Below the pieces are notes generated by a model. It was not told the DNA's origin and searched no databases. It saw only the letters and a program-made list of their open reading frames with translations. Position numbers and translations under genes: made by a program. DNA of 39,734 nt, taken from the IMG/VR virus record IMGVR_UViG_3300044971_002890, positions 1-39,734 of that record, one strand, 5' to 3'. The stretch comes from a virus. How positions within the stretch are numbered: the first letter of the stretch is position 1; each line of letters starts with the position of its first letter. Below, piece after piece: positions 6,696 to 34,400 of this stretch.

Positions 6696-6697
6696 AA

Positions 6698-7531: not shown

Positions 7532-7560
7532 TAGATTATAAGACTGTCCAATATTAAAAG

Positions 7561-7567: not shown

Positions 7568-7580
7568 TCACAAAAATAAA

Positions 7581-14313: not shown

Positions 14314-14562
14314 TTAAGGTAATTGTAAAGAATTGACTACTAATGTTTTACCATCTCCAACAGTTAAATTTATACCAGTCTCAACGTGAAGATCTTTTTC
14401 TTGTGCGACAATAAAAGGACCACCAGAAGATAGATCCGTATTTGAAGTGACTGTTGCAGCAGTGCTAACTGATGCAAAGATTGATCCTGGGTCTCCTGTT
14501 TGTATAGGAGATCCAACTCCACGCTCATCACCAAATTTTGATATATCTCTTGCCTTTGACAT
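14314..14562 (-). CDS. small fibre-type protein with C-terminal beta cap (82 aa)
   Basis: Starts MSKARDISKFGDERGVG and ends ETGINLTVGDGKTLVVNSLQ. The last 25 or so residues match the end of the 540-aa protein (NTGVGVTIGDGKLLIINAFD) and resemble the caps at 30086 and 30280, so this seems to be a separate short fibre ending domain. It has a late motif in front (14577) and a late motif behind. Function unknown beyond structural. Confidence 0.7.
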   Translation of the reverse strand: MSKARDISKFGDERGVGSPIQTGDPGSIFASVSTAATVTSNTDLSSGGPFIVAQEKDLHVETGINLTVGDGKTLVVNSLQLP

Positions 14563-18359: not shown

Positions 18360-18746
18360 TCATATTAAGGTATATTTTTCCCATACTTGAAGTTCTTCAT
18401 TCCAGTTTAAATTAGTTGAAACTTCTTTTTCTTCATCAGTTAAAATTGGTTCTGGTACAGGTGGAGTCCACTTCAAAGTGTTTTCATCCAATGTCCACGA
18501 TGGATATGGTTTTTCAGAAATAAATCCATCTTTAAACTTATCAAAGGTATTACCTATGTATCCCCAATTTTTTTTATTATCAATCATTACCCAATAATCT
18601 TTTTTTGAATCTGGATATTTTTCATACAAGTAAGTGTATGCCCAATGTTCATATAAATTGCCATCATCATCTGTTACAATATCATCAAATACAAAGACAA
18701 CATCTACAACTTTGTTATTGGAATTAACTCTCGCAAAATTAAACAT
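18360..18746 (-). CDS. paralogue of the 17892 protein (128 aa)
   Basis: MFNFARVNSNNKVVDVVFVF opens like its neighbour; then KKNWGYIGNTFDKFKDGFIS, PYPSWTLDENTLKWTPPVPE and a closing WNEELQVWEKYTLI. It lacks the acidic Pro/Glu tail of the 140-aa protein and is more AT-rich, so the two have diverged since duplication or came from different phages. Late motif at 18768. Function unknown. Confidence 0.75.
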   Translation of the reverse strand: MFNFARVNSNNKVVDVVFVFDDIVTDDDGNLYEHWAYTYLYEKYPDSKKDYWVMIDNKKNWGYIGNTFDKFKDGFISEKPYPSWTLDENTLKWTPPVPEPILTDEEKEVSTNLNWNEELQVWEKYTLI

Positions 18747-18767: not shown

Positions 18768-18774
18768 TATTTAT
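18768..18774 (-). promoter_or_regulatory. T4-type late promoter motif containing a stop codon
   Basis: AATAAATAGATAAAA; TAA at 18771-18773 is the stop of the oxygenase gene before it. 22 bases before the ATG at 18746. Confidence 0.65.
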
Positions 18775-19346
18775 TTTTTTAGATTGAAAGAAAAAAATTG
18801 AGACATTACAAGTCTACCATTATCTTTATTCCATCCAAAAGATTTTGCAATCGTATGTGGAAGTTTTGAATTGTATATTACAAAACGATTATACTTATTC
18901 TCAATATTTACAATTTCACCAGAAGAAAGTTTTATTTTTGTTCCTCTCCCTTTTCTTACATTTTTATTTAAATAAACAACACCAGCATAATAATACTCAC
19001 ACTTATTATCATTTTCTCCAATAAAATCTTGATGCCATTGAGGTAACTGCTTGTTTATATTTTTAAAAGTAAGTGAAAAAGTATTCCACACTCTATTGTC
19101 TTCATGCGACCAATCTACGCAATTATTTGTAATAAAGTTTGTTATTGCCGCTTGTTTTTCAATAATCATTTTAGATAATTCAGTATCTTGAAGATTAATA
19201 TAATTGGTTCTCAATCCAGGAAACTGCAATAGATGTTGAGGATCTGGATGATCTGTTGAATTATAAAATCTAAAATAATTTAAAGCTCTTTTTCTAACCT
19301 CATCTGGATCTTCAAAAAAATTATCCAGCACAAAAAATTCTCTCAT
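18771..19346 (-). CDS. DUF6445-like 2OG-Fe(II) oxygenase
   Basis: 191 aa. MREFFVLDNFFEDPDEVRKR is the standard opening of this family. LPQWHQDFIGEND gives HxD (His105, Asp107), YYYAGVVYLNKNV and GRGTKI the next strands, YNRFVIYNSKLPHTIAKSFG the distal His (164), and GRLVMSQFF the Arg (178). All expected residues are present. It follows the adhesin at 19373 across the same TTAAATATAAAA junction as the 5700/5176 pair. Substrate unknown; the adhesin upstream is a candidate. Confidence 0.88.
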   Translation of the reverse strand: MREFFVLDNFFEDPDEVRKRALNYFRFYNSTDHPDPQHLLQFPGLRTNYINLQDTELSKMIIEKQAAITNFITNNCVDWSHEDNRVWNTFSLTFKNINKQLPQWHQDFIGENDNKCEYYYAGVVYLNKNVRKGRGTKIKLSSGEIVNIENKYNRFVIYNSKLPHTIAKSFGWNKDNGRLVMSQFFSFNLKK

Positions 19347-19365
19347 GATATTTTAAAGCAAAAGT

Positions 19366-19377
19366 TTTATATTTAAG
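19366..19377 (-). repeat. adhesin-oxygenase junction 12-mer (copy 2)
   Basis: TTAAATATAAAA with the adhesin's TAA stop (19373-19375) at the same offset as in the copy at 5692-5703. Confidence 0.5.
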
Positions 19378-20503
19378 ATCCAGTAGATCCTCCAGTATTT
19401 TTGTATCTGATTAATACAATTCCTGGACCACCATTTCCCTGATAAACTGCTCCACCTCCACCAGTATTTGGTTGTCCATTTTTTGATGGTTGAGGAGCTC
19501 CACCTCCACCACCTTTTCCTCCCGTGCCAGGAGCACCAGTTCCTCCTGGGTATTGACCTCCATGACCTCCACCACCAAACCAAGCTTCTGTTGGATAATT
19601 ACTATCACCAAATCCATTAGTTGCTCTTGGTCCAATTATAGGACTAAAATCAATTCCATCACCACCTTGCGCTCTAAAAGAAGCTGCGGGAGCAGGAACA
19701 GTGATACCAGGTCCTGGTATTGGTGAAGAGTAATATGTTGGTGGACTATATCTTGCTCCACCACCGCCACCACCAGAGTAAGATGTATCAGAGGCAGTTG
19801 CGTTTCCAGGACTTCCTTGGAATCTAGTATCGCCAATGGGTGATGTTGGTCCACTTGCTCTTGGTTCTGGACTATTTCCTGCTCCATTATTTCCTGCACC
19901 AAATTGAGCTGTTGGACCGGGATAATCTTTTCCTCCACCACAACCGCCGTTTCCACCACCACCTCCTCCACCTGCTCCACCATATCCTCCACCATGAACT
20001 GTAATTGATGGAACACCATTACCGTTTGGGGCATTAAAAACTGTTGGTTGTCCCTGTGCGCCGTCCGCAGCAGCTGCAGCACCGCCACCAACACCAATTG
20101 GATATGACCCAACAGGTAATGATATTTGTGGAATAAATCTTACTCCACCAGCTCCACCACCACCTCCTCCATATGAACCCGGTTGATCATCTCCACCAGT
20201 ACCACCACCAGCGACTAGAATAATGTCAAAATTAGTTGACGGTATTATTGGTGTTGCATTTGCAGGAATAGTAAACGTGTATGGATTTGAACTATCAAGT
20301 GATCCACCAGGAAAAGAATGTATTGTGTAATCATTCCAAGTGGTAATTGTTCCTCCAGTAGCATTTATACTTGGTAATGGAGGAACATAATTTGTCGATA
20401 TTCCACTCGTTCTTTTTGTACTGAAATATTCAACAAGATGTTGATCTAACCTTTTATTATTACCAACACCTTTAGGTCCTTTGTCTGAACTTTTTGCACC
20501 CAT
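19373..20503 (-). CDS. glycine-rich tail-tip adhesin (376 aa)
   Basis: Differs at the N-terminus from the MAP-type adhesins: MGAKSSDKGPKGVGNNKRLD, then HLVEYFSTKRTSG. After that the usual pattern: NDYTIHSFPGGS, FDIILVAGGGTGG, long Gly/Pro loops (GGAGGGGGGGNGGCGGG with one Cys) and a closing GPGIVLIRYKNTGG. It follows the 135-aa structural gene by 15 bases. An oxygenase gene comes next. Receptor-binding role inferred. Confidence 0.8.
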   Translation of the reverse strand: MGAKSSDKGPKGVGNNKRLDQHLVEYFSTKRTSGISTNYVPPLPSINATGGTITTWNDYTIHSFPGGSLDSSNPYTFTIPANATPIIPSTNFDIILVAGGGTGGDDQPGSYGGGGGGAGGVRFIPQISLPVGSYPIGVGGGAAAAADGAQGQPTVFNAPNGNGVPSITVHGGGYGGAGGGGGGGNGGCGGGKDYPGPTAQFGAGNNGAGNSPEPRASGPTSPIGDTRFQGSPGNATASDTSYSGGGGGGARYSPPTYYSSPIPGPGITVPAPAASFRAQGGDGIDFSPIIGPRATNGFGDSNYPTEAWFGGGGHGGQYPGGTGAPGTGGKGGGGGAPQPSKNGQPNTGGGGAVYQGNGGPGIVLIRYKNTGGSTGS

Positions 20504-20518
20504 TCTATTTACCTCTTA

Positions 20519-20926
20519 TCAGATATCAGTATCACCAAGAATTTGATAGTTCACGACACTACCAATACCTGCTCCTCCCGACCCTGGTGGTATAACTTCC
20601 ACAACGATCTTTTCTTGATTTGTAAGAACCAAAGGATAATTCATTTCAAAGAAAAAAGTTTCATTCTGCGATAAGTCTACTCTTGCTAAACGATAAGCAG
20701 TTTGTCCAACACCTGTCACAGGAGAAGCGACACTACTTGGATACACATAAAGAGATGAAGTGCAAGTTGCAAATCCAGTATTGTGCATTATCACACCACG
20801 AACATAAGTGGTTGATGCAATTCCAACTCCACCAGCAGTTTGAGTTGTTCCAACTGTCAAAATACCTACTGTTGCAATACCAGTGACTGATTGTATTCCC
20901 AGTAGTTTAGTTCTTTTGAGTGACAT
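20519..20926 (-). CDS. structural protein upstream of the 19373 adhesin (135 aa)
   Basis: MSLKRTKLLGIQSVTGIATV leader, then a beta-sandwich-like domain (YVRGVIMHNTGFATCTSSLY, FFFEMNYPLVLTNQEKIVVE, VVNYQILGDTDI). The second half resembles the small proteins at 31099 and 35357, in which a ligand-of-baseplate or virion-decoration type fold is likely. It takes the position held by fibre genes in the other adhesin pairs. Late motif at 20947. Confidence 0.7.
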   Translation of the reverse strand: MSLKRTKLLGIQSVTGIATVGILTVGTTQTAGGVGIASTTYVRGVIMHNTGFATCTSSLYVYPSSVASPVTGVGQTAYRLARVDLSQNETFFFEMNYPLVLTNQEKIVVEVIPPGSGGAGIGSVVNYQILGDTDI

Positions 20927-20946: not shown

Positions 20947-20953
20947 TATTTAT
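20947..20953 (-). promoter_or_regulatory. T4-type late promoter motif containing a stop codon
   Basis: GATAAATAACTTAAAAAA; TAA at 20950-20952 is the stop of the 211-aa gene. 21 bases before the ATG at 20926. Confidence 0.65.
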
Positions 20954-21585
20954 CCAAAAAGCATACCATCAAGTTCATTGTAAGAACCTTCACCACCACC
21001 AGCAGCAATACCAGTTAGTTGTGAACCATTACCAACAAAATTTGTAGCATATAAAGTTCCAGTGACCGTAGCACCAGCACTAACGGTTTCAAACTTTTTA
21101 CTATTATCATAATAAAGTTCAGAGGCACCATTGCCAGTGAACTTTGCCATCGTTTCACCAGTGCTGTGATGCTGAATGATGACATCAGTTGAACCAGAAA
21201 GATATAAGTTTCCAGTTCCCGTATCTTCTACATAACTGTTTGTTCCATCGTGATAGATTCTGAGATCATCACCATCACCAAAGTTTGCCTTAACATTATC
21301 ACGAAGATTTATGTTTTGGGTGAAAGTGCTTATGCCAGATGTATAAAGATTATTTACAACAATACTTGGAGAACCAGTTAGTCCCGATGCAAGTGTTGAA
21401 GTGCCACTAAAAGTCCCACTGAAAGAAGTTGCAGTGATAATACCCGTTGAGTTTATATTACCTACATTACTAATATTACCTACGCTACTAATCCCCGAAC
21501 CACCTAAATCAAGATTATCTCCTGCTTGGAGTTCTTGAAGTTGATTCGCATTGGAGTTATAAATCAGCGGATATCTATTCGCCAT
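20950..21585 (-). CDS. tail-fibre protein with YHDG module (211 aa)
   Basis: MANRYPLIYNSNANQLQELQ opening (as in 10121), a few beta repeats (SVGNISNVGNINSTGI), then FGDGDDLRIYHDGTNSYVED, TGNLYLSGSTDVIIQHHS and SELYYDNSKKFETVSAGATV. This YHDG/GTGNL/YYDNSKKFE module occurs in two or more further copies in the 1305-aa protein, so it is a reusable fibre-shaft segment. Ends FVGNGSQLTGIAAGGGEGSY. Late motif at 21608. Confidence 0.78.
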   Translation of the reverse strand: MANRYPLIYNSNANQLQELQAGDNLDLGGSGISSVGNISNVGNINSTGIITATSFSGTFSGTSTLASGLTGSPSIVVNNLYTSGISTFTQNINLRDNVKANFGDGDDLRIYHDGTNSYVEDTGTGNLYLSGSTDVIIQHHSTGETMAKFTGNGASELYYDNSKKFETVSAGATVTGTLYATNFVGNGSQLTGIAAGGGEGSYNELDGMLFG

Positions 21586-22021: not shown

Positions 22022-22549
22022 TTAGGTATTTATAAAATCAACTATAAAATGCACCCTATCAATATCACTGTTGTTATTTACAGAGTGTATTTTATTTGTA
22101 TTATTAATTTCCCACATTTCACCAACTTTCATATTTTTAACTTCATCATCAACTACAAATAAAACTTTTTTATTTGATATTAACGGAATATGTATTCTTC
22201 GAATTCCTTCAAGTAAATGACCAGAATCTATATGTGGTGGTATTGATTTTTGCGAATACAGTTTTGTCAAAATAACACGAACAATTTTTCCTTGCCCATA
22301 GTGTCTCACACAGATATTTTCAATATCTTTTAGTTCTTTTTGAAATAAATCATACCATTTTGTTTTTGTACTTTGAAAATTTTTATCAAAGATAACAGGA
22401 ACAGTTTGAGTAAACTTATGAGCTTCAAATGTTTTTTGTCTAAAATCAAATTCTCCCCACTCTAACTTTGAAATTTTTTTAACCTTTCTGATTATTTTTA
22501 TTCTCTGAAAGAAATTTAATTTTCCAACAAACTGATAGTTAAAGTTCAT
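22022..22549 (-). CDS. aspartyl/asparaginyl beta-hydroxylase-like protein
   Basis: 175 aa. KSIPPHIDSGHLLEGIRRIH holds HxD (His106, Asp108) and the RR pair (117-118) typical of the Asp/Asn beta-hydroxylase family, followed by IPLISN, VGEMWEINNTNKIHSVNNN (distal His155) and DRVHFIVDF (Arg165). The family hydroxylates Asp or Asn side chains with 2-oxoglutarate and Fe(II). The gene overlaps the sulfotransferase stop by 4 nt (ATGA) and so is coupled to it. The last codons (I-N-T-stop) are read from a TATAAATACC late promoter. Substrate unknown. Confidence 0.88.
   Translation of the reverse strand: MNFNYQFVGKLNFFQRIKIIRKVKKISKLEWGEFDFRQKTFEAHKFTQTVPVIFDKNFQSTKTKWYDLFQKELKDIENICVRHYGQGKIVRVILTKLYSQKSIPPHIDSGHLLEGIRRIHIPLISNKKVLFVVDDEVKNMKVGEMWEINNTNKIHSVNNNSDIDRVHFIVDFINT
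22027..22034 (-). promoter_or_regulatory. T4-type late promoter motif, perfect TATAAATA, inside the upstream gene
   Basis: TATAAATACCTAAAAA; the motif encodes the last residues of the hydroxylase (Ile-Asn-Thr-stop). 15 bases before the ATG at 22012. Confidence 0.72.
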
Positions 22550-23349
22550 TTTAATGAAAGATACAATGAGTTATAATTTTTATACTTTTCAATGATTGAT
22601 TTTGGAACATAATCTTGATAGTTATATTCGGTTTTTTTTATTTTACTTTTTACTCGGTGTAAATTACGTCCAAAAACAATATCATTATATTCAATTTCAT
22701 TAGATTTAAAATTAGAAATATTTTCTAGTTGATGATGATATTTTTTTATTCCTAAAAACTTATAAATTTGATTTATCTTATTTTCAGTATCAGAAACAAG
22801 ATCTTCATACTTTACGAAAAGTGCGTGTCTTTTATTTTCGCTTTTATTTAAATTATATAAAGAGTGTAAAGATTTCATAATCTGTCCGTTGCTGTCCATT
22901 AAAACTTCACACTTTTTTTCAGTTGTATTGAATTCTTCTAAAAAATTACCTTTATTATTTTCAGACCAATAAAGGAAAGATGCTAATATCTCGTTTAAAT
23001 CTCTAATTAATACAACTACTTTTATTTCATTAGGACAATACTTTTTGAGTAGTTCTAAATTATCAGGAGTTCCCCAACAAGACCTATCGATAATATACTT
23101 AAACTTCCAGTCACGATAATAATTACAGAATATTTTTTTACTTATATTATCTATTGATTTTGTATCTGGAAAGTTTACAAATTTTGGATCAGTGTTTTTT
23201 AAATTTTCTATCTCATAAAAAACATCTGCAACTGGACTATTAGCAGTTACACATATGTTTTTATTTTGGTTGAGAATAGATCCAAGTAAAGTATTTCCAG
23301 ATCTAGGTAATCCAGAAAGAAAATAATATTTTTTTCCACCAAAGATCAT
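22546..23349 (-). CDS. sulfotransferase family protein
   Basis: 267 aa. YYFLSGLPRSGNTLLGSIL (about residues 8-26) is the 5'-phosphosulfate-binding loop, and VVLIRDLNEILASFLYW (about 111-128) supplies Arg116 and Ser124 for the 3'-phosphate of PAPS. LFVKYEDLVSD and NKINQIYKFLGI are further family features. The enzyme would transfer sulfate from PAPS to a hydroxyl (carbohydrate or Tyr); acceptor unknown. It is AT-rich, comes right after the adhesin at 23386, has a sigma70-type promoter, and is coupled to the beta-hydroxylase. Sulfotransferases occur in some cyanophages. Confidence 0.9.
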   Translation of the reverse strand: MIFGGKKYYFLSGLPRSGNTLLGSILNQNKNICVTANSPVADVFYEIENLKNTDPKFVNFPDTKSIDNISKKIFCNYYRDWKFKYIIDRSCWGTPDNLELLKKYCPNEIKVVVLIRDLNEILASFLYWSENNKGNFLEEFNTTEKKCEVLMDSNGQIMKSLHSLYNLNKSENKRHALFVKYEDLVSDTENKINQIYKFLGIKKYHHQLENISNFKSNEIEYNDIVFGRNLHRVKSKIKKTEYNYQDYVPKSIIEKYKNYNSLYLSLK

Positions 23350-23372
23350 AATAAAATACTTTACTTACATTT

Positions 23373-23402
23373 ATTATACACCAATTTATTGATATCTGAC
23401 AA
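23373..23402 (-). promoter_or_regulatory. sigma70-type promoter for sulfotransferase and hydroxylase
   Basis: TTGTCA (23397-23402), 18 bp, perfect TATAAT (23373-23378) on the minus strand, overlapping the end of the adhesin gene. Start near 23366, 17 bases ahead of the ATG. Confidence 0.6.
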
Positions 23403-24408
23403 TCACAATACCGTGTCCACCATCTCCACCAGCACCAGGAGTTGGGTTGAGTGGATTAGTAGTACTAGTAACATAATTTGCACCACCTCCTCCACCACCG
23501 GTGAAATTAACACCAGGATCTCCGTTATCATACTCACCAACTGGACCTCGATTTATACCACCACCACCTTCTCCGCCGCCACCAACACCACCTAAAGGTC
23601 GAACTGTAGTAGTATAATAATTTGCTCCGCCGCCGCCACCGCCAAAATATCCTGTTGGTCCTACAGTAGGAGACCATCGTGGTCTTATTGGTGCAGGTAT
23701 CGCAGGAGCAAGTATGGTTGATGGGAATCCAGGGAATGGTTGTCCAGCACCACCGTGTCCTCCTCGTGTTGGTGCAGGAGCAGCAAGATTTCCTCCACCA
23801 GCTCCGCCGCCACCATCACCATATCCAGTGGTAGTAGTAGAAGCATTTCCATAAGCAGTAAATAATCCAGGAACTGGTTGAGGTGCCGCTGGTGTAGTTG
23901 TATTTGAATATTGACCACTTCCACCACCAGAACCACCAGGTAATGCAGCTACTGGACCTCCTGCTCCACCACCTACTGCTGTGATTGTTCCTATTATAGG
24001 ACCAGAAATTAAAGAATTACTTCCAGAACCACCTTGTGCGCCTGGTGCCTTATCTCCACCTTTACCAACAGAAATGGTGTGTGAAGCGGCAGAAAGTGGA
24101 ACATTGGGTCCATAGACAACACCACCTGCTCCTCCACCACCTGCATAAAAATGTCCACCACCAGCACCACCACCAGCAACAATTAAAACATCCGCAGTAA
24201 TTGCAGTGTTTACTATAAGATTATCTGCATTTGGGTATAAAAATACGTGATAAGTATATCCATTTCCAGATTCGGCACTTGGAATTATAGTACCTCCACT
24301 TGCTTTAACACCACCGACAGCAGCAAGAGGGACTTTTCTTTTTCCAAAACTAAATCCACCAGTTCCCCCTCCGCCAAGAGAAGAAAGTCTGCTTATAATA
24401 GGTGCCAT
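23386..24408 (-). CDS. glycine-rich tail-tip adhesin (340 aa)
   Basis: MAPIISRLSSLGGGGTGGFS start, then GNGYTYHVFLYPNADNLIVN, TADVLIVAGGGAGGGHF, and Gly/Pro loops (PGLFTAYGN, GGGGGANYYTTTVRPLG), ending HGIVIVRYQ. Its layout is very like the adhesin at 28079, including the PFPGFPST / PIRPRWSPTVGPTGYFGGGG segment, which matches PFPAFAAP / PVQPLWIPAVGPTGLYGGGG there. Starts 1 base after the fibre gene at 24410. A sulfotransferase-hydroxylase pair follows. Confidence 0.82.
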   Translation of the reverse strand: MAPIISRLSSLGGGGTGGFSFGKRKVPLAAVGGVKASGGTIIPSAESGNGYTYHVFLYPNADNLIVNTAITADVLIVAGGGAGGGHFYAGGGGAGGVVYGPNVPLSAASHTISVGKGGDKAPGAQGGSGSNSLISGPIIGTITAVGGGAGGPVAALPGGSGGGSGQYSNTTTPAAPQPVPGLFTAYGNASTTTTGYGDGGGGAGGGNLAAPAPTRGGHGGAGQPFPGFPSTILAPAIPAPIRPRWSPTVGPTGYFGGGGGGANYYTTTVRPLGGVGGGGEGGGGINRGPVGEYDNGDPGVNFTGGGGGGANYVTSTTNPLNPTPGAGGDGGHGIVIVRYQ

Positions 24409-24409
24409 A

Positions 24410-25165
24410 TCAATAGAATCCTCCGCTTGCTACACCAAATACTTCATAGTTATCAGTCGTGCTTGCAGAACCAATGGTATTGATTCCAGTAAATCCGTAG
24501 ATCGTATAACCAGCAGTTGTAGTCATTCCGGAAACAGCATTGGCAAGAGAACCACCTGCCCACTTAATTGTCTTAGAAACTCCATTCATATTAACAGCAG
24601 TACAAGTTCTTGCAATACCACTCGTTGAAGTTGCAATCACAGTAAAGGTTACAGCGTGATTATCAAAATCACTGGATGTCGGAATACCAACAACATTTAA
24701 CGTAATATTGCCAGTTGCATTTGTGCAGATTGCAACGTTAGCACTTGAAGAATTATATGTTAATGTTGCAGTATTTCCCGAAATCAATGCAGTCTTTTCC
24801 GCACCAGTAATAAATCTACTTTCATTTGGAGCGATTGGAATATTTGCTTCAAAAGATTTCTTAGTATCGTTATATGTAAAAGTCTTATTGGTTGTTCCAT
24901 AAATCCGAATACCATCACCATCTGCTTGTGCATCTGTGGTATTTCCAGATCCAATACCAACAAGAGGATCTGTTATTTCTAAATTAGTTGTATTAATAAT
25001 TGTCTGAGTACCATTAACTGTTAGATTACCAGTTACAGTCAGAGCACCACCAACCTGAACATCTTGTGATGATGTTAATGTACCAAGAACTGTTGCTCCA
25101 TTTGGAAATGTAGGAGCACCAGTTCCTGCCTCATTTTTAATATTATTAACTCTTATTTCAGACAT
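24410..25165 (-). CDS. tail-fibre protein partnering the 23386 adhesin
   Basis: 251 aa. MSEIRVNNIKNEAGTGAPTF leader, LTVTGNLTVNGTQTIINTTN block, then NDTKKSFEANIPIAPNESRF and a C-terminal domain ANVAICTNATGNITLNVVGI to INTIGSASTTDNYEVFGVAS, homologous to the genes at 6698 and 13654. Late motif at 25186. Likely a trimeric fibre carrying the adhesin. Confidence 0.8.
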   Translation of the reverse strand: MSEIRVNNIKNEAGTGAPTFPNGATVLGTLTSSQDVQVGGALTVTGNLTVNGTQTIINTTNLEITDPLVGIGSGNTTDAQADGDGIRIYGTTNKTFTYNDTKKSFEANIPIAPNESRFITGAEKTALISGNTATLTYNSSSANVAICTNATGNITLNVVGIPTSSDFDNHAVTFTVIATSTSGIARTCTAVNMNGVSKTIKWAGGSLANAVSGMTTTAGYTIYGFTGINTIGSASTTDNYEVFGVASGGFY

Positions 25166-25185
25166 TTTGAGTTATACTTTTCAGT

Positions 25186-25192
25186 TATTTAT
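25186..25192 (-). promoter_or_regulatory. T4-type late promoter motif
   Basis: CATAAATAACTGAAAA, 21 bases before the ATG at 25165, shortly after the stop of the 84-aa gene. Confidence 0.65.
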
Positions 25193-25197
25193 GCTTA

Positions 25198-25452
25198 TCA
25201 AGTACCTGTTGGTCTTTCAAACTCAGTTCCTTCCTGAACAATTCCATCACCATCACCGTCTATCGCGTTTGGATTATATCCATCATTATTTACAACAAAA
25301 CCACCAAACGCATAAAGTTCAGTGGTTGCTTCTTCCTGAGAAGCGTATAATTTACGATCATCAAAATTAGTTGACCAATTATAATTTCCCTGATAATAAA
25401 TTGATTTAGTTTGTCTTTGAATAGTTTGTACTTTCTTAATAAAGTAAGACAT
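25198..25452 (-). CDS. small protein with DxDxDG calcium-site-like loop (84 aa)
   Basis: MSYFIKKVQTIQRQTKSIYY, GNYNWSTNFDDRKLYASQEE, TELYAFGGFVVNNDG and then PNAIDGDGDGIVQEGTEFER. The DGDGDGIVQEG loop (about residues 65-75) has the spacing of an EF-hand/dockerin-type Ca2+ site. The protein family is common beside cyanophage fibre genes; it may be a Ca2+-stabilised virion part. Late motif at 25471. Function not known. Confidence 0.7.
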   Translation of the reverse strand: MSYFIKKVQTIQRQTKSIYYQGNYNWSTNFDDRKLYASQEEATTELYAFGGFVVNNDGYNPNAIDGDGDGIVQEGTEFERPTGT

Positions 25453-25465
25453 TTTAAATACTTTT

Positions 25466-26020
25466 TTAAGTATTTATTGCTTGATGATCTGGAAGTTTAG
25501 GAAGTAAATCAAAAGCAATAATTGTTCTCTGCTTTCTTGATTGATTAGGATGAACAAAGTGTAATGTATAAGAAGGAACGATGACTAATGTTCCCTCTTT
25601 GACATCTTGAGGATATGCCAGAGTTGTTGTATCAGTTCTTGGGTCTTGCCAGGGAGCAACAAAACAAGTAGGAGTATGATGCTTTGAATCAAACTCAACA
25701 TAAAGAACACCAGAGAATCCCCAACTGCGATGGTTGTGAATCGTCTGGTGGTCTCCTTGTTTATATCTCACAGACCAGGCATCAGTCATACTACAAGTGA
25801 CTTGTGCTTCCTGACAGAATTCAAACAGTTGAGGTTTGATGAGGTCTTGGAAGTAATGAATATAATTTTTGCGATTTGTTTGACGATCAGTCTCAAAAGT
25901 TTGCAGTGTAGTTCTTACAAACTTTTGAGAGTTGATACGATTGAGAAGTCCCTTCTTTTTAAAATCCCAATCATCAATCTGATACTGATAAGAAGGGTAT
26001 TCAAAAAGTTGAGTTTTCAT
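25466..26020 (-). CDS. 2OG-Fe(II) oxygenase-like protein (2OG-FeII_Oxy_5 type)
   Basis: 184 aa. HQTIHNHRSWGFSGVLYVEF gives His95/His97 in the HxH form of this subfamily, VKEGTLVIVPSYTLHFVHPN the distal His (154 or 157), and RTIIAFDLL the Arg (165). Contains WQDPRTDTTTL between the halves. Last of a four-oxygenase operon running from 28030, overlapping the gene before it by 4 nt. Its last codons (Ile-Asn-Thr-stop) double as the late motif for the next gene. Substrate unknown. Confidence 0.87.
   Translation of the reverse strand: MKTQLFEYPSYQYQIDDWDFKKKGLLNRINSQKFVRTTLQTFETDRQTNRKNYIHYFQDLIKPQLFEFCQEAQVTCSMTDAWSVRYKQGDHQTIHNHRSWGFSGVLYVEFDSKHHTPTCFVAPWQDPRTDTTTLAYPQDVKEGTLVIVPSYTLHFVHPNQSRKQRTIIAFDLLPKLPDHQAINT
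25471..25477 (-). promoter_or_regulatory. T4-type late promoter motif inside the upstream gene
   Basis: AATAAATACTTAAAAAA; encodes the Ile-Asn-Thr-stop end of the oxygenase. 19 bases before the ATG at 25452. Confidence 0.6.
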
Positions 26021-26682
26021 AATCGTATAGCATTATTATATAGTGCATGGTTATATGGACAAATATCAAATGCGATTGTTATTCTTGGTTTAAGTGAATA
26101 GTGTGGGGTTGTATAATGAAAAATATATGATGGAAACAAAGTCATATCTCCATTTTTATTTTTAATCTCAATGATTTCTGGATCATTTATTTGATTGATT
26201 GGTGACATATAAACAGTTGAAGTATTTTCTACTTGAAGATTAAAGTGACCACTTAAATAGGAAACACTGCTGGTTGAATGCGAATGCGGTTTAATTTTTT
26301 GACCAAATCTCAATACATTATACCAACATTGAACCCATAACTCATTTGGAGTTTGATTTCCACACTCATTATTATAAATTATTAAATTTTTAACAATTTG
26401 TTGTTTTAATTTTTTTATTTCAGGATGATTCCAAGTAAGAATATTATAATATTGAAATTTAGATGTTGTACTATTTTTTCCTAATCCAGTGTATCCATCA
26501 ACATTTTTACCAATATAACTGGTAGATATTGGTAGTTTTTTTACTTCTTTTTCTTTACTTAATAAGAACTGGGAAAGAGAGTTAGTATCAATATTTTCAC
26601 ATAAAGAAGTTCCAACTCTAAAATCCCAAGTTGGAGCATAGGGGGTTTGAGGTGAAGCACTTACAAACCTTTTAAAATTCAT
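26017..26682 (-). CDS. 2OG-Fe(II) oxygenase-like protein (2OG-FeII_Oxy_5 type)
   Basis: 221 aa. VLRFGQKIKPHSHSTSSVSY holds His133/His135 (HxH), YLSGHFNLQV the next strand, MTLFPSYIFHYTTPH the distal His (189), and PRITIAFDICPYNH the Arg (200). N-terminal third is unlike its neighbours (QTPYAPTWDFRVGTSLCEN). ATGA overlaps with both adjacent oxygenase genes, so the run is translationally coupled. AT-richer than the two genes upstream. Substrate unknown. Confidence 0.86.
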   Translation of the reverse strand: MNFKRFVSASPQTPYAPTWDFRVGTSLCENIDTNSLSQFLLSKEKEVKKLPISTSYIGKNVDGYTGLGKNSTTSKFQYYNILTWNHPEIKKLKQQIVKNLIIYNNECGNQTPNELWVQCWYNVLRFGQKIKPHSHSTSSVSYLSGHFNLQVENTSTVYMSPINQINDPEIIEIKNKNGDMTLFPSYIFHYTTPHYSLKPRITIAFDICPYNHALYNNAIRL

Positions 26683-27401
26683 CGTGCCCTATCCCAAGCA
26701 CAGTGAGCACGTTGTCCATCTTGTAGGACATAATGGAAGAAGATTTGATGATAATAAAGGTCAGCACTCTTACCAAACAGTTTCTTACTCTTCTTTGCAC
26801 CAGGCATTGGGTCTCTCCAATGTGGGCGTTCACAACCTTTATAAACCATCCCATCACCTGCTTTGAGAATTACAGAACGATTTTCACCAGGAACTAATAC
26901 TTGTGTCCTCTTCTTATCTGCATAAGTATCAGGAGTTTTGATCCAGATGGGCCAATCAGCATCCTTTCCTTCCAGGTTGGTACTGATATGAACCGTCACA
27001 GAAATCTCACAAGCATCACGGTCTGCGTGACGGGTAAGTTCCTGCCCTGGGAAGTAGTATCTATCATAATAATAAGTATTATAAAGTTTTCGACCCAGTG
27101 CTTCTTCAAGTTTCATACGAACACCACAGTGAATCTGACGGTATTGTGGATGCCAATAACGTGCAAGTGAACCTTCAACCTGTTGCTCTACTGGTGTATA
27201 GGTAAACTGGTCCATCTTTTTACCCCACCAGTTCATCTGTCCACGCTCTTCTGGTACGGGGTGATAAAGTTCTTCTTGATCCCATAAATTTTTAATCACT
27301 AAATATCCATTCTTCTCAAAAGACTCATTACGAGTCCAAGCAGTTCCCGTATTTCTACGTTCCTGCATCATTAGATCTAGTTCGCTCATTTGTTCTGCCA
27401 T
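26679..27401 (-). CDS. prolyl-4-hydroxylase-like 2OG-Fe(II) oxygenase
   Basis: 240 aa. GQELTRHADRDACEISVTVH gives HxD (His125, Asp127). WPIWIKTPD and VILKAGDGMVYKGCERPHWR supply the later strands and a distal His (184), and YYHQIFFHYVLQDGQRAHCA closes the fold. This arrangement is widespread in cyanomyoviruses. Coding is less AT-rich than the next two genes, matching the gene upstream. No gap of note to 27410 (8 nt). A protein hydroxylase is likely; substrate unknown. Confidence 0.87.
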   Translation of the reverse strand: MAEQMSELDLMMQERRNTGTAWTRNESFEKNGYLVIKNLWDQEELYHPVPEERGQMNWWGKKMDQFTYTPVEQQVEGSLARYWHPQYRQIHCGVRMKLEEALGRKLYNTYYYDRYYFPGQELTRHADRDACEISVTVHISTNLEGKDADWPIWIKTPDTYADKKRTQVLVPGENRSVILKAGDGMVYKGCERPHWRDPMPGAKKSKKLFGKSADLYYHQIFFHYVLQDGQRAHCAWDRAR

Positions 27402-27409
27402 AATTTACC

Positions 27410-28030
27410 TCACTTCCAGCGGGGTCCAACCGTCCATCCAACAAGGGATTTACGGGTTCCTTTTGTAACTTTTAGAACTCTATGTTGTGTGCGAGAATCA
27501 AATAGAATGACAGTGCCACGCTTACGAGGAGCAATATAACTATTACCTGACTCATCAAGCAGTTGCAAGTTTCCACCTTCATAATCATCGGGGTCTGACA
27601 GTTGAACCACAAATGAAAGTTTACGCACAAGTTCAATATTCTCATTCAAGAAATCTTGTGCCAGTCCATCTTGACGATTACCGACGCTTACTGGTTTGTA
27701 TTGAGTTGCAAGTCCTGCGTCATTATGCCAACCATAGAATTGCCCTTCACTATACTTCGTAAACTGCATTGATTCACCATCAATACAACGAAGGTCATAG
27801 AGGAAGTTCTCGCGGTTTGCGCGTTCAATATAGTGCCATACAAATCCACCAACCCAATGTGTGGTTGGAATCCAAGCGTTTTGTGAGTTTCGTTTATCTT
27901 TGTTTAGGGCATCTCCATGAAGTCGGGAGTCTGCCATTTGCTCTTCGAACTTTTCTGAAAGGTCTCGTTCGATGAGATCTACTACATCTTCTGGTAGATC
28001 AGAAAAATACCAAATTGATTGAAATGCCAT
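27410..28030 (-). CDS. PKHD-type 2OG-Fe(II) oxygenase
   Basis: 206 aa. GQFYGWHNDAG gives HxD (His102, Asp104), RKLSFVVQLSDPDDYEGGNL the central strands with the typical YxGGxL, GTVILFDSRTQHRVLKVTKG the distal His (183), and RKSLVGWTVGPRW the Arg (193). This is the PiuC/YbiX-like hydroxylase type commonly found in T4-like cyanophages. First gene of the four-oxygenase operon, 17 bases downstream of the predicted start from a perfect consensus promoter. All catalytic residues are present. Substrate unknown. Confidence 0.92.
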   Translation of the reverse strand: MAFQSIWYFSDLPEDVVDLIERDLSEKFEEQMADSRLHGDALNKDKRNSQNAWIPTTHWVGGFVWHYIERANRENFLYDLRCIDGESMQFTKYSEGQFYGWHNDAGLATQYKPVSVGNRQDGLAQDFLNENIELVRKLSFVVQLSDPDDYEGGNLQLLDESGNSYIAPRKRGTVILFDSRTQHRVLKVTKGTRKSLVGWTVGPRWK

Positions 28031-28053
28031 ATTTGAATAATGTATTCATTTTC

Positions 28054-28082
28054 ATTATATATGAGATTATGGAAAGTGTCAA
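28054..28082 (-). promoter_or_regulatory. perfect consensus sigma70 promoter of the oxygenase operon
   Basis: TTGACA (28077-28082), 17 bp, TATAAT (28054-28059) on the minus strand: full match to the bacterial consensus. The TGA inside TTGACA is the stop codon of the adhesin gene at 28079. Predicted start near 28047. Confidence 0.85.
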
Positions 28083-29158
28083 ATTTGATATCTAATAATA
28101 ACTATACCATCTCCACCTGATGCTGCTGGCACATTTCCACAACCAGTATAAGATCCAGATCCTCCACCTCCTCCGGTATATTTAATTCCAGGTGTTCCAC
28201 ATCCATTTATATTTACAGGAGAAGGAGATCCATTTCCACCGCCTCCAGGTCCTCCAATACCTCCATTTGGGTCGGTCTCGTTTCTTCCTCCTCCACCACC
28301 ACCACCGCCATACAGACCAGTTGGCCCAACAGCAGGAATCCAAAGTGGTTGCACAGGAACAGGAATTTCTGGAGAAATTAATGGAGCAGCAAATGCTGGA
28401 AATGGTTGTCCTGCTCCACCAGGTCCATTCCCAGATTGCCCAGCAGCTGGACTGCCAGCAGATCCAGCACCACCGCCACCAGCACCTTTTGGATCAGATC
28501 CACCGGTACCACCAGGATTTCCGTATTGAGAAAAGAATGGACTTGGTGTAAATGGAACATTGAGCGTTGGTTGTGTTCCTGTTCCTCCTATAAATCCTGG
28601 GGTGTATGTTGGTTCTCCGGTATATGTTCTGCCTCCACCACCAGATCCACCAGAATGTTCCGGCATATTTGGCACGACACCATCATACGGACCACCACCA
28701 CCTCCACCATCTGCAACCATTCCAAAAGCAGTAGAAGGTGATCCCTTTCTTCCTGTTGGACCACCAGCAGGAGTAGTTTGAGCAGCACCCTGTCCAGAAT
28801 TTCCTACTCCAATAGGATATGTTCCTGCTGTCACTACATATGAACTATGCCTAACAATACCTCCTGCACCACCACCAGCAGCAAGTGGATTAGCAGCACC
28901 ACCACCACCAGCAACAATTAAAACATCAATATTTTTAGATCCTCCATCTACAACAAAATTTCCTGGTGAAAGAAAAACATGATATCTATAACCATTTCCC
29001 GGAGTTATCCCTGCTATAGTATTTGTTCCACCTGACGCAGAAAATACAGAAGGAGCAGAAATACCTACTGCAGCAGCAGCTCCACCAAACCCAAATCCAC
29101 CAACACCTCTTGCAATACCAGTAAAGACTGGTTTTTCTTTCTTATGCCATTCAAACAT
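28079..29158 (-). CDS. glycine-rich tail-tip adhesin (359 aa)
   Basis: Starts MFEWHKKEKPVFTGIARGVG, GFGFGGAAAAVG, then GNGYRYHVFLSPGNFVVDGG, KNIDVLIVAGGGG and Gly/Pro loops, ending GGDGIVIIRYQI. The segment PVQPLWIPAVGPTGLYGGGG is shared in form with the adhesin at 23386. Starts 15 bases after the fibre gene at 29174. Four oxygenase genes follow behind a strong promoter that overlaps its stop. Receptor-binding role inferred. Confidence 0.82.
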   Translation of the reverse strand: MFEWHKKEKPVFTGIARGVGGFGFGGAAAAVGISAPSVFSASGGTNTIAGITPGNGYRYHVFLSPGNFVVDGGSKNIDVLIVAGGGGAANPLAAGGGAGGIVRHSSYVVTAGTYPIGVGNSGQGAAQTTPAGGPTGRKGSPSTAFGMVADGGGGGGPYDGVVPNMPEHSGGSGGGGRTYTGEPTYTPGFIGGTGTQPTLNVPFTPSPFFSQYGNPGGTGGSDPKGAGGGGAGSAGSPAAGQSGNGPGGAGQPFPAFAAPLISPEIPVPVQPLWIPAVGPTGLYGGGGGGGGRNETDPNGGIGGPGGGGNGSPSPVNINGCGTPGIKYTGGGGGSGSYTGCGNVPAASGGDGIVIIRYQI

Positions 29159-29173
29159 GATCCAGTCCTCCTA

Positions 29174-30058
29174 TTATGGTCTTACACCACCGTATCTGAA
29201 GTTGCCATTGTCAGTAGCATATACAATATAGTTTCCAACAGTTCCTGTTGACCCACCATTATAATGAACTGCAAGACTGACAATATCAACATCATTTGCA
29301 GTTGATGAAATAGTTACAGTGCTTCCACTAGAAACTCTTGCCGAAGTTGAGAATCCAGCAACATTATAAGGTTTTAAGAAAATATTTGTTCCAATACCAG
29401 TGGATCCTGTCGTGTTTCCAGTTCCAGTTGCATTTTGAGTAAAGATAATAGTATAAGTCGTCAGAGAGTTCTTTGTAACTGCGAAGTCTCTGAGTGAAAC
29501 AATACCAACCTGCCCATTTGCAAGACTATGAGTAAATACCGTTCCGTTATGAGCATCACACTCTAAGATAACATTTGTTGATCCACTGATTGCATAAGTT
29601 GATGCCGTGCTTACAGTTTCAACAGCACCTCTAATGTCAACACCATTGCTGAAAGCAAATGCATCAGAGTTGCTATTCCAAGTTAAAGTCTTATCTCCAT
29701 CAGAACCACCAAAGATTGTAATACCACCACCATCTGCTGTGGTATTTGATGGTGAAGTAGTAGTTCCAATACCAATATTCTTATCTTCTACAACCAGATT
29801 TACAGAACTAATAGTGGTAGTGGTCCCATCTACTGTCATATTGCCATTAACAGTAAGACCACCACAGGTCATAATACCACTGGTATTAACAGTTCCACTT
29901 CCAGTTACATTCAGAGCACCAGTAACATTCAAAGATCCAGAAACATTAGTATTTCCAGAAATAGAAGCAATACCAGTCACTGCAAGAGTATTAGATTCTG
30001 GAATCGTAACTGTACTTCCAGTTCTTGATTTAATATTGTCTACTCTTAATGTTGACAT
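29174..30058 (-). CDS. tail-fibre protein partnering the 28079 adhesin
   Basis: 294 aa. MSTLRVDNIKSRTGSTVTIP leader, SGSLNVTGALNVTGSGTVNT repeats, then the block GGLTVNGNMTVDGTTTTISS, VEDKNIGIGTTTSPSN and GGITIFGGSDGDKTLTW, nearly the same as in 10121 at DNA level too. C-terminal domain VGIVSLRDFAVTKNSLTTYT to VGNYIVYATDNGNFRYGG. Variant late motif at 30077. Confidence 0.8.
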   Translation of the reverse strand: MSTLRVDNIKSRTGSTVTIPESNTLAVTGIASISGNTNVSGSLNVTGALNVTGSGTVNTSGIMTCGGLTVNGNMTVDGTTTTISSVNLVVEDKNIGIGTTTSPSNTTADGGGITIFGGSDGDKTLTWNSNSDAFAFSNGVDIRGAVETVSTASTYAISGSTNVILECDAHNGTVFTHSLANGQVGIVSLRDFAVTKNSLTTYTIIFTQNATGTGNTTGSTGIGTNIFLKPYNVAGFSTSARVSSGSTVTISSTANDVDIVSLAVHYNGGSTGTVGNYIVYATDNGNFRYGGVRP

Positions 30059-30076
30059 CTTGAACTTACTTTTTAG

Positions 30077-30084
30077 TTATTTAG
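30077..30084 (-). promoter_or_regulatory. variant late promoter motif CTAAATAA
   Basis: TCTAAATAACTAAAAA, 19 bases before the ATG at 30058, directly after the stop of the gene at 30086. It keeps the CTAAAAA block seen behind other late motifs. Confidence 0.5.
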
Positions 30085-30085
30085 A

Positions 30086-30283
30086 TTAGTTTTCTGTTAT
30101 GATTAAAATACAACCATCATTAATACTTAACTCAATACCAGGTTCAATGTCAACGGTATTATTTTCAGAGTCTGCCTGAATAAAACCAGTCTTATAAGGC
30201 AATTCTAATGTGATATTAGTTTCTACCACATTCTTTTGTACGGTTCTATAAGTATTATCAGTAAAATAAATCGGAAGTGTCAT
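30086..30283 (-). CDS. small fibre cap-domain protein (65 aa)
   Basis: I use the ATG at 30281-30283 (MTLPIYFTDNTYRTVQ), which overlaps the TGA of the preceding gene; the longer frame to 30307 would overlap more. The rest (NVVETNITLELPYKTGF, VDIEPGIELSINDGCILIIT) is a close copy of the C-terminal half of the preceding 113-aa protein, so this is a freed duplicate of a beta cap domain. Structural role inferred. Confidence 0.72.
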   Translation of the reverse strand: MTLPIYFTDNTYRTVQKNVVETNITLELPYKTGFIQADSENNTVDIEPGIELSINDGCILIITEN

Positions 30284-30621
30284 ATGTCTATAATATTCAG
30301 AACACAACCATTATCAATACTTAACTGGACACCAGACTCAATATCAACAGTCACATCTGGATCAGTATAAATCGTTGCTGTCTTATAAGGTAGCGCAACA
30401 GTAATATTAGATTCTACAACATTCTGATAAGCAAATACGGTGCTGTCATAAACCTGTGAAGCACCTCCCGTGATTCCAGTCAGTCCTGCACCAGAACCAA
30501 CAAATGATGCAGCGGTAACAATACCACTAAAAGTCGCTTCGGTTCCTTGAATACCGCCTGCAAAGTTCAACGGATCTTCAAGAGAGTTACCACCAACTTT
30601 TGTAATTCTTGAAAGTGCCAT
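30280..30621 (-). CDS. small fibre protein with same cap domain (113 aa)
   Basis: MALSRITKVGGNSLEDPLNF opening, TFSGIVTAASFVGSGAGLTG repeat, then NVVESNITVALPYKTATIYT and VDIESGVQLSIDNGCVLNII, the cap domain duplicated in the next gene. Follows the 155-aa gene by 8 bases, without its own late motif, so it is probably cotranscribed with it. Structural. Confidence 0.75.
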   Translation of the reverse strand: MALSRITKVGGNSLEDPLNFAGGIQGTEATFSGIVTAASFVGSGAGLTGITGGASQVYDSTVFAYQNVVESNITVALPYKTATIYTDPDVTVDIESGVQLSIDNGCVLNIIDI

Positions 30622-30629
30622 AGTTCTAC

Positions 30630-31097
30630 CTAAAAGAGTCCAAGAACATTAGTTTGTAAAGTAGTTCCCGACGCGATTCTAAAAGTCGCACCAGAGGCAA
30701 CAACAATATCACCCGCTCTGGTGAATGCAACATTACCTTCATCAGATCCAACTTCAATACTCACAGAAGTTCCTGCACCAATTCTAAGTTCTTTTGAAGT
30801 TTTAAAAACTTGAAAAAGTGGTGATGATTGAATTGGAGAAAGTGCTGTTGCAAATCCACTTACACCCGTAAGTTGAGATCCATCACCAACAAATGAGGAT
30901 GCCGTTACAACGCCTGTTGCATTAATACTTGTAGCAGATACATTACCAACAAATGAGGATGCCGTTACAACACCTGTCGCATTAATACTTGTGGCAGAAG
31001 CAATACCAATAGTACCAATTCCTGTCGCATTCAGACTTGTAGCAGCAAAATTTAATGTACTTGTAATTATTCCAGATTGTACCCTGGTAAGTGGCAT
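30630..31097 (-). CDS. fibre protein with tandem repeat (155 aa)
   Basis: MPLTRVQSGIITSTLNFAAT opening, then ATSINATGVVTASSFVG twice in direct tandem, FVGDGSQLTGVSG, and a C-terminal beta part (LRIGAGTSVSIEVGSDEG, IVVASGATFRIASGTTLQTN). The repeats are 60 bp apart with few differences. Lies 1 base after the gene at 31099. Structural. Confidence 0.75.
   Translation of the reverse strand: MPLTRVQSGIITSTLNFAATSLNATGIGTIGIASATSINATGVVTASSFVGNVSATSINATGVVTASSFVGDGSQLTGVSGFATALSPIQSSPLFQVFKTSKELRIGAGTSVSIEVGSDEGNVAFTRAGDIVVASGATFRIASGTTLQTNVLGLF
30885..30998. repeat. two-copy 60-bp direct repeat within the 155-aa fibre gene
   Basis: Copies at 30885-30938 and 30945-30998 differ at only three or so bases over 54; a degraded third partial copy is at about 31021-31044. 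Each unit encodes 20 residues (ATSINATGVVTASSFVG plus three). Confidence 0.85.
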
Positions 31098-31098
31098 T

Positions 31099-31425
31099 TT
31101 ATGTCATCTCCAAGATATTGACACTTACATCTAAACTACTATTTGTATCACTTTGTACTGTGAGCGTATCAGTTGCTTCTAATATAATCTTATTTCCTTG
31201 CATAAATTCCAAAGTTGATCCCTGAGGAACAGGTGCATTTTTCAAAAGTTTGATACTATCTGCACCAACTCTACTCACACCAACACCAACATTGATACCA
31301 GAACCAGAAATATTGGCAAGAGTGATACCAATCACAGTGGTTGTAGTTGCTGCGGGAACGGTATAGACAGCAACCGTTGCAACTCCTACATTTGCTTTTG
31401 TTTTAAGTTTAAAAGTATTAGCCAT
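31099..31425 (-). CDS. small virion structural protein (108 aa)
   Basis: MANTFKLKTKANVGVATVAV, VYTVPAATTTTVIGITLAN, then GADSIKLLKNAPVPQGSTLE and KIILEATDTLTVQSDTN, ending SVNILEMT. The alternation of strands and the PxGSTxExxxGxKxIxExxD pattern match the protein at 35357 (ILLAQAAN, IPANDSTNLLFGKLILETGD), so both have the same predicted beta-sandwich. Such proteins in cyanomyovirus virions are of unknown position. A possible late promoter is at 31505. Confidence 0.75.
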   Translation of the reverse strand: MANTFKLKTKANVGVATVAVYTVPAATTTTVIGITLANISGSGINVGVGVSRVGADSIKLLKNAPVPQGSTLEFMQGNKIILEATDTLTVQSDTNSSLDVSVNILEMT

Positions 31426-31430
31426 TTATA

Positions 31431-34400
31431 TCATCCGAATGCAATTGCCAGTCTGACTGCTTCTTCAAGTACATCTACACCCTTAATCTTCACTGATGTT
31501 GAACTATTTATATCTCCATTTACATCCAGTTTGTATGATGGAATCGAAGATCCAGAAGTTCCAATACCAACACTTCCAGTTTGAGTATCATAAACAAAAC
31601 GATCCGTAAATGTAGAAATACCAATGATTGAAGTTGATGCTCCACCAACAAAAGAAACGTCCTGAATACGTGGACTTGTGACAGTGGAAATACTTAAAGC
31701 ACCACCACTTGCAGCAGCAATATTACCAAAATCAATAACAACGGTGCTGCCATAACCAGTAACACTAATGCCAGTACCAACAATATTAATATCGGTGAAT
31801 CCAATACCAATTCTTTGGTTAATAAGTCCAGAACCAGGATTTACAGAAGTAGATCCAATACCAATGCCAGAGGTAAATAACTGACCATTCTGATAAAAAC
31901 TTCCGTTAAAGTATAAATCATTACCAACATAAAGATCACCACCAGTTGTTGTGATCCCACCAGCAGAAGCAAGTGTAGTGATTCCAACAACTGATAGATT
32001 ACCACCAACTCTAACATCACTTCTAGCAGTAATGACTCCAATAGAATCAACATTAGTTACATCTTCATAAGTTAATGTTCCTGCAATACTTACATTTCCT
32101 AATGCAGTAAGATTCGTTACAGTAATGCTTGGATTTCCTGTCAGGTTTTGTGCAACTGTTGCAATACCAGCAGTAGTTGCATAACCTGCACTTTCACTAT
32201 AAGTCGATATACCTGCCAGAGAAGCATAAGTGGCAATGCCAGCATTTCTAGCATATGCAACATTCAAACTACTTTCAACAATACCATTCAATGTAAATGC
32301 AGTTGTTGCAAATGATGCTGTCGATGCAGTACCAATAAATTGTGGTGAAGTTACATTCCCAGTAAAACTAGCCTGAGTTCCAAATAACGAAGTAGAAGTC
32401 GTAACTCCTAATGTTGTAATACCAGTGACTACTAGACTATCAAAAGTTGGTGTATCAGAAACTCTAACGGTAGCAATACCATTAGGAGCAGGATCAGCAG
32501 AAGCAATGATGTTATTGCCTCTGAAATCAAGAGTCGTAATGCTTCCAGCAGTTCCTACTACACTACCTTCATCATATACATTAAATCCATTCAGGATATT
32601 ATTAACAGAGAAAATACCAGGAATAGATGCCCATTCCCAAGTGCCAGTACCAGTTGCTCTTAGAATATATTGGGCACCACCAAAATCAATTCCATCAGGT
32701 GAAATTTGATTTACATCAAGTTTGTTAATTGTTGCAATTCCAGCATTTACATCACCAACAAACTGTCTTGCAGTGGCAACACCAGAAACTAAAACATCAC
32801 CAACAACTTGTAATTTTGCTGTTGGATTTGTTGAACCAATACCAAGATTTCCTGACGTAGGAATAAATCCCATCTCAGTATCGGCAATACCAATTGAAGT
32901 AACGCCAATACTGTTAGCAAAGGTTGGATAAACAGGTGATGCACTCAGAATTTGATTGACAACATTAAATGCATTAACACCAATCAGGTTCGAACCATCA
33001 CCATAATACTTAACTGTGGTTACTCCTGGTTGAGAAGAAGTTACAATACCACTTGAAATTGTAACTCCATCAATAGTACCAATACCAGTATAATTAAGGT
33101 TCGTACCACTAAGATTAGTAATATTGGCGTTGGTAATAGTTGCAACACCAGCACTAATATCACCAACAAATTGACGAGCAGTGACTACACCATTAAAGAT
33201 ACCATTATCAATGAAGGTTACTGTTGGTTTAGTGTCAGAAGATAAGTTAATTGCCTGATATCCCTGACCACTATTAATCTGACCAACACCAATAGTACCT
33301 TGGAATGCTACATTACCAGTTCCGTCATAAACATAGAATGCATTGGTTCCGTTTGCAGACTGATAATATCCTGTGCTTGGACGGAAGGAAGATCCAGTTA
33401 CAATTCCAGTCGCATTCAGTTGAGTTGTATTAAGTGTCCCATAGACGGTTGCACCAATACCAGAAGTTTCAAATGTTTTTACATTATCATAATAAAGTGC
33501 TACTGAACCATTTGAAGTGAAAACTGCAAGATTTTCTGATGAACTAGAATTTTGGATAAAGTGTGTGCCAGCTCTATAATAAGTGTTAGATGCATCAATA
33601 AAGAGATTTCCAGTTCCAATATCTTGAATGAAACTATCAAAACCATTATGGAAAATTCTTAAATCATTTCCATCACCGAAATATAAATCTGCATTATCAA
33701 CAAGTTTTACATCATTCTGGAATGTAGAAACACCAGAGACACTTAACTGATTTGTAAAGGTAGTTCCAGTTACAGTAGCGCCAACTCCAAGTGTTTCAAA
33801 TTTCTTAGAATTGTCGTAGTAGAGTTCTACTGCTCCGTTTGTAATAAATCTTGCCTTAAATTCAGTTCCAGCAGTGTTCTTAATAGAAACATCATTATCA
33901 CCATAAATGTTAAGGTTTCCAGTTCCCTGATCAATAATGTAACTATCAACTCCATCGTGATAAAGTCTTAAATCATTACCATTACCAATATAAAGATTAA
34001 CACTATCAAGAAGATATACACTACTTTCAAATCTAGAAGTGCCAGTGACAGTTAATTGGTCATCAATGGTAACTGTTCCACCAGCAGAGTCAAGTGTTAA
34101 GTTTCCAGTAGAAGTATCAATTTCATTATCATCTGCAATACCGATTCTAATATTATCAATTGTTGCTCCACCATTTGCATCTATAAGTCCAGCAAATGTA
34201 GAAACACCAGAAATATTAACATTATCAAGTTCAGTATGACCTGTTACATCTAAACCACCATTCGAATCAATTAATCCAGTGAATGTGGAAACACCCGCAA
34301 CACTTAGATTTCCAGAGAGGACCGCATTACGAGCATTAAACTCATCAAAGAAAATATCATCCTTTACATAAAGATCTCCACCAACATAGAGATCACCACC

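Follow-up and report, generated by a model that had tools for sequence, protein, structure and literature searches.

In a T4-like cyanomyovirus, a conserved sigma70-type promoter appears to form the left boundary of a mobile cassette of oxygenase genes, and this is the new point of the present analysis. The best explanation for the locus as a whole, which I consider probable, is that a host-read promoter marks the left end of a recombining oxygenase cassette and provides pre-late transcription in addition to late read-through. The window, i.e. the whole stretch of 39,734 nucleotides analysed here, is a fibre-rich portion of a T4-like cyanomyovirus genome (Kyanoviridae) and carries psbD as well as a ThyX-like protein. 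At the oxygenase locus, the nearest isolates are the Synechococcus phages S-SM2 and Bellamy (~77% DNA identity). The contig IMGVR_UViG_3300036398_002654 (locus L058) corresponds to window positions 22413-33030, identical across 10,618 bases, and represents the same or a sister genome. The left end of the cassette and its genes are arranged as follows:

28079..29158, minus strand: adhesin-like protein, rich in Gly (29%), lying ahead of the promoter; most relatives have unrelated genes here
28079..28081, minus strand: TGA within the -35, the stop codon of adhesin 28079-29158; the same arrangement recurs with unrelated upstream genes
28054..28082, minus strand: sigma70-type promoter; -35 TTGACA at 28082-28077, spacer of 17 bases, -10 TATAAT at 28059-28054
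28037..28049, minus strand: second conserved block (leader block), ATGAATACATTAT here and CTGAATACATTAT in the consensus, recognised by information content and a one-mismatch match
27410..28030, minus strand: ox1, 2OG-Fe(II) oxygenase (PF13640), T4-GC 412 family, PKHD/YbiX-like
26679..27401, minus strand: ox2, obligate partner of ox1; predicted double-stranded beta-helix oxygenase, H125xD127...H194
26017..26682, minus strand: ox3, 2OG-FeII_Oxy_5 (PF13759), in few cassettes; HxH replaces HxD
25466..26020, minus strand: ox4, 2OG-FeII_Oxy_5 (PF13759), a common third member of the cassette

A perfect TTGACA-17-TATAAT promoter at 28054-28082 had been proposed by a sequence-only reading of the window, which was correct in coordinates, strand and spacer: on the minus strand, 28082-28054 reads TTGACACTTTCCATAATCTCATATATAAT, an exact consensus (12/12 match, spacing 17) whose -10 ends 23 bases ahead of the ox1 ATG. 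The accompanying claim that a full consensus is rare by chance was borne out as well, with one TTGACA/TATAAT site at a spacing of 15-19 bases in the whole window, heading ox1, versus 0.10 perfect sites expected per window from dinucleotide shuffles. The TGA at 28081-28079 inside the -35 does indeed terminate the adhesin ORF 28079-29158, and the -35 contains the stop of the upstream gene in ~10 distinct loci (stop offset +4; stop-to-ATG distance 48 nt). A gp55-type late box is absent from the ox1 5' region in the window.

Conservation was assessed in 80 IMG/VR relatives of ox1, whose 5' regions yielded 66 distinct sequences, each scored by its best site 5-45 nt ahead of the ox1 start. The promoter matched at 12/12 in 33 of the 66 and at 11/12 in 17 more, versus ~0 and 0.23, respectively, for shuffled ox1 5' regions; ~16 of the 66 were without a good promoter site. 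The spacer measured 17 bases in 47 of the 50 relatives scoring 11/12 or 12/12, and the S-SM2 and Bellamy homologues, SSM2_035 and gene 46, retain the -35, the 17-base spacer, the -10 and the leader block. Information content was near background upstream of the -35, rose abruptly at the -35, and was high at the -10 and the leader block and mostly low in the spacer; as the alignment was anchored on the -10, the height of the -10 itself is partly by construction, while the heights of the -35 and the leader block are not. The spacer diverges but the -35, the -10 and their spacing are kept, which indicates selection on promoter use, and I infer that the site, which as a sequence feature can be regarded as a conserved promoter, is used in vivo.

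The genes upstream of ox1 are unrelated to one another; some encode Gly-rich adhesins, some other oxygenases and some further proteins of the fibre island. Because these left neighbours vary and conservation begins at the -35, the promoter belongs to the oxygenase cassette and not to the adhesin. Within 60 nt upstream of ox1, 66 of 67 distinct relatives showed no late motif, and a hidden late box in the ox1 5' region, present in just 1/67, was consequently rejected. Scanning all viral contigs for the pattern of promoter plus leader block returned 54 stretches, and the distinct matches precede ox1 in nearly all cases, with ox1 identities down to 52%; an exception is L127, where an ox1 with a disrupted frame lies behind the promoter and leader. 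The promoter-leader block occurs twice, 755 bases apart, in L010 (4194-4250 and 4949-5005; also in L142), the first copy preceding a short ORF of 23 codons and another oxygenase gene, different from ox1, and the block itself thus seems to duplicate. In L141 (2594-3354) and L124 (reverse strand) the gene behind it encodes an unrelated protein of 231 aa that has no Pfam match.

The leader block at 28037-28049 spans the predicted transcription start (~28047) and leader, and may be an operator or a translational element. Within the predicted leader, CTGAATACATTAT has ATTAT inverted relative to the -10. A general phage element was rejected, as the block is absent after the other perfect promoters of S-SM2. 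That genome holds 8 perfect sites versus 0.25 expected, each of them on the gene strand and with a 17-base spacer; these precede ox1, hli03 and small unknown genes, and sites with one mismatch lie ahead of gp55, talC and a nucleotide-sugar epimerase. According to the annotation, none of the perfect S-SM2 sites lies directly before a virion structural gene. The window promoter resembles the host-like sigma70 promoters of cyanomyoviruses (Syn9, S-PM2, S-SM2), which show TTGACA-17-TATAAT before pre-late genes without a late box and which S-SM2 has in many perfect copies, but it differs from them in that promoter and leader are bound to one cassette that moves within the late fibre island.

Not all promoter candidates in the window held up. 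Related promoters had been proposed at 9394-9422 (TTGTAA-17-TATAAT) and 23373-23402 (TTGTCA-18-TATAAT), and both exist as strings; their strength is at chance level, with 66 and 68 sites of at least 9/12 found versus 64-65 expected, and their -35s lie within adhesin C-terminal codons. The two sites were also not kept in the more distant relatives L084-L086, L089 and L090, and were rejected as members of the same promoter class. The claim that fibre genes instead bear late motifs was upheld, [ACT]TAAATA being present within the 60 nt ahead of 17/29 fibre/adhesin-region genes versus 2/11 enzyme genes in the window. In several places the preceding gene ends on the TAA of the late motif TAAATA (upstream of 10988-11704, 14314-14562, 15516-16178, 18360-18746, 20519-20926 and 20950-21585), so that promoters sit on stop codons at module joints both with these late motifs and with the TGA of the oxygenase -35.

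The gene order proposed for the operon (27410, 26679, 26017, 25466) was correct, and the proposed translational coupling held in part: 26679/26017 and 26017/25466 overlap by 4 bases (ATGA), but 27410 and 26679 are separated by an 8-base gap. Ox1 matches PF13640 with an E value of 3e-15, and the residues of its HxD...H...R motif (H102, D104, H183, R193) are each at least 97% conserved. In ox2, H125, D127 and H194 are invariant; its AlphaFold model (pLDDT 85) has a double-stranded beta-helix fold that is best matched in the PDB by AlkB and prolyl hydroxylases (E to 1e-8). The query-normalised TM-scores are just 0.34-0.54, and at such modest values the matches fix the superfamily of ox2 but not its function. 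Ox2 is accordingly a predicted 2OG-Fe(II)-type oxygenase. GenBank/RefSeq and PHROGs name it 'ferrochelatase', and the PHROG label alone carries this name among its family matches. No Pfam or NCBIfam model, ferrochelatase families included, matched ox2, and given its invariant HxD...H and predicted beta-helix fold, the label looks wrong for ox2, SSM2_036, Bellamy gene 47 and the other members of T4-GC 615 / PHROG 2954. Ox3 and ox4 match PF13759 above the cut-off, yet have HxH where the canonical HxD is expected. The cyanophage 2OG-Fe(II) oxygenases (T4-GC 412, 155, 180; PHROG 61, 81) and T4-GC 615 (PHROG 2954), the latter a predicted oxygenase here in contrast to its public name, are direct homologues of the ox genes, and the S-SM2 homologues have the same gene order as the window. 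Outside phages, relatives of ox2 were found on one MAG contig only.

Ox2 follows ox1 in all 80 loci, usually 8-9 bases on and sometimes with one gene inserted, while ox4 is present in about half of the 80 and ox3 in few. The core of the cassette is therefore ox1-ox2, with ox3, ox4 and others optional. Three further features, placed around the cassette, concern its relation to late transcription:

30078..30084, minus strand: late motif CTAAATA in front of the fibre-adhesin unit 29174-28079, with possible read-through into the cassette
25471..25477, minus strand: late-promoter-type motif ATAAATA inside the last ox4 codons, ahead of 25198-25452
25198..25452, minus strand: small 84-aa protein with a DGDGDGIVQEGT loop (DGDGDG), the first late-motif gene past the cassette

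A late motif lies within -30 to +60 of the ox4 stop in 33/34 distinct ends, versus 3.9 expected, and in 13/34 it is embedded in the last ox4 codons at the same offset as in the window (-12). The cassette is bracketed in this way, with a host-type promoter leading in and a late motif leading out. The 84-aa gene also follows the cassette in 11/12 full-length relatives, and its product is a candidate substrate or partner of the cassette enzymes.

No terminator was found in the window between the late adhesin unit and the cassette, and among relatives a terminator insulating the cassette upstream was seen in just 2/67, with none found by a stricter scan. Downstream, intrinsic terminators follow 5/33 ox4 ends and 4/30 ox2 ends in relatives. 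The GC content of ox1-ox2 is ~42%, compared with 36-46% in the surroundings. A precise empty site, sought via the gene after the cassette, was not found; in nearly every case, this gene was preceded by the cassette itself. The cassette resembles phage morons in having its own host-type promoter inside a late region and unrelated left neighbours, and the terminator after the cassettes of some relatives is also moron-like, but it differs in that the window copy has no terminator, the composition is not foreign, no clean empty site was found and the phage is lytic. It works like a moron but is not classed as one, because of the missing terminator in the window copy and the composition.

Mechanistically, host cyanobacterial RNA polymerase with the primary sigma factor would read the ox1 promoter. 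The cassette would recombine and move among T4-like cyanomyoviruses into tail-fibre islands, its -35 abutting the preceding gene and often supplying the stop codon of the latter, while its far end would hand over to the late-promoter motif of the next fibre gene. The enzymes would be transcribed pre-late, probably as middle genes, whichever late gene adjoins upstream, and late read-through may add to this where no terminator intervenes.

The neighbours of the enzymes speak for fibres as a possible substrate. All five enzyme clusters of the window (5176-5691, 7714-9372, 18771-19346, 22022-23349 and 25466-28030) start right behind one of its seven Gly-rich adhesins, an adjacency with a probability of ~3 in 10,000 by random placement among ~27 non-enzyme genes (hand calculation). 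The clusters include oxygenases, a sulfotransferase and an Asp/Asn hydroxylase-like protein; enzymes and adhesins together form blocks at 5176-9372, 18771-20503, 22022-24408 and 25466-29158, and the Gly-rich adhesins 11722 and 14580 are without an enzyme. It is tentatively suggested that portable promoter-headed cassettes of cyanomyoviruses hydroxylate receptor-binding fibres and run earlier so that the enzymes await the late fibre proteins. The likely purpose of pre-late transcription is that hydroxylases would already be in place once fibre and adhesin synthesis begins. Should adhesins be what the enzymes act on, the cassette is not matched to any single one, because it is conserved while its neighbour changes freely. 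The S-SM2 genome also contains a Gly-rich tract, as does the part of Bellamy that was read, and a shared fibre feature could thus still be the target. A literature search for phage prolyl hydroxylases acting on tail fibres returned nothing useful.

An unlikely but credible alternative is that the oxygenases belong to an early or middle takeover set and have host targets, either proteins or metabolites (translation factors, 2-oxoglutarate level), with their place among fibre genes just reflecting an island that tolerates insertions. The cassette's own host-type promoter fits this, as do the strong conservation of ox1-ox2, not shared by the adjoining adhesins, and the non-structural genes behind similar promoters in S-SM2; however, the position of five clusters right after Gly-rich adhesins is difficult to account for if the enzymes have nothing to do with the fibres. 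The predicted ox2 fold resembles prolyl hydroxylases, one of which was solved with EF-Tu, but this similarity is at superfamily level only. Phage effects on the host 2OG level have been proposed (PMC3037559).

Regulation of the pair is not uniform across lineages. Ox1-ox2 (T4-GC 412 and 615, or the same product names) occur in several other Kyanoviridae genera, and in P-RSM4, S-CAM8, S-SSM5, ACG-2014b, ACG-2014g and S-RIM50 the gene upstream of the pair is on the opposite strand, so that its transcription cannot serve ox1-ox2 in these six. S-RIM50 and ACG-2014g have an 11/12 site before the divergent ox1 homologue, the ox1 5' regions of P-RSM4 and S-SSM5 showed no convincing sigma70-like site, and the ox1 of S-MbCM6 (L150, 2975-3001), 57% identical, carries a late-type motif in place of such a site, which suggests a regulatory switch in that lineage; it is from these differences that the lack of uniformity follows. 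At the head of the oxygenase/halogenase cluster of Syn9, no comparable promoter was found.

The sequence-only reading further held that the enzymes could be made before the fibres, and its interpretation found partial support. That the enzymes are expressed earlier than the fibres, or separately from them, is indeed likeliest, given a conserved sigma70-type promoter that is unlike the late motifs of the fibres, whereas strictly early timing was not upheld, as host-like promoters in such phages probably mean middle expression, and neither was exclusively pre-late expression, since no terminator was found in the window between the late adhesin unit and the operon. Doron et al. 2016 (ISME J) are said to have found that host-like promoters drive the middle class. 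Sources disagree on whether sigma70-like sites of cyanophages mean early or middle expression, such sites having been called early (PMC5931967, PMC2984593), and in P-HM2 the cyanophage AMGs are all in the middle expression cluster (PMC5082946). Most likely, the oxygenases have their own pre-late transcription, middle rather than strictly early, plus the late read-through that is expected without an intervening terminator.

It is improbable that the sigma70-like site is inherited but weak and that enzyme production is in effect late, fed by read-through from the fibre unit. The missing upstream terminator, the late motif ahead of the fibre-adhesin unit and the late-type motif of S-MbCM6 ox1 would all allow for this, but the -35, -10 and spacing were kept while the spacer bases diverged, as expected under selection on use, and some homologues are divergent from their upstream neighbour, whose read-through cannot serve them. 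A chance origin, with the consensus arising accidentally where two genes meet in an AT-rich genome, is practically excluded, for although 10% of shuffles hold one such site somewhere in the window, the promoter is kept in dozens of independent contexts, and the conservation in 66 distinct relatives compared with shuffles rules it out.

Own pre-late transcription from a conserved host-type promoter bound to the cassette would mean that the enzymes are regulated apart from the fibres that surround them, which separates the hypotheses on their role, and the ox1 promoter gives a specific predicted transcription start (~28047). A promoter that rides with its genes would also show how genes may move through the late island with their timing intact.
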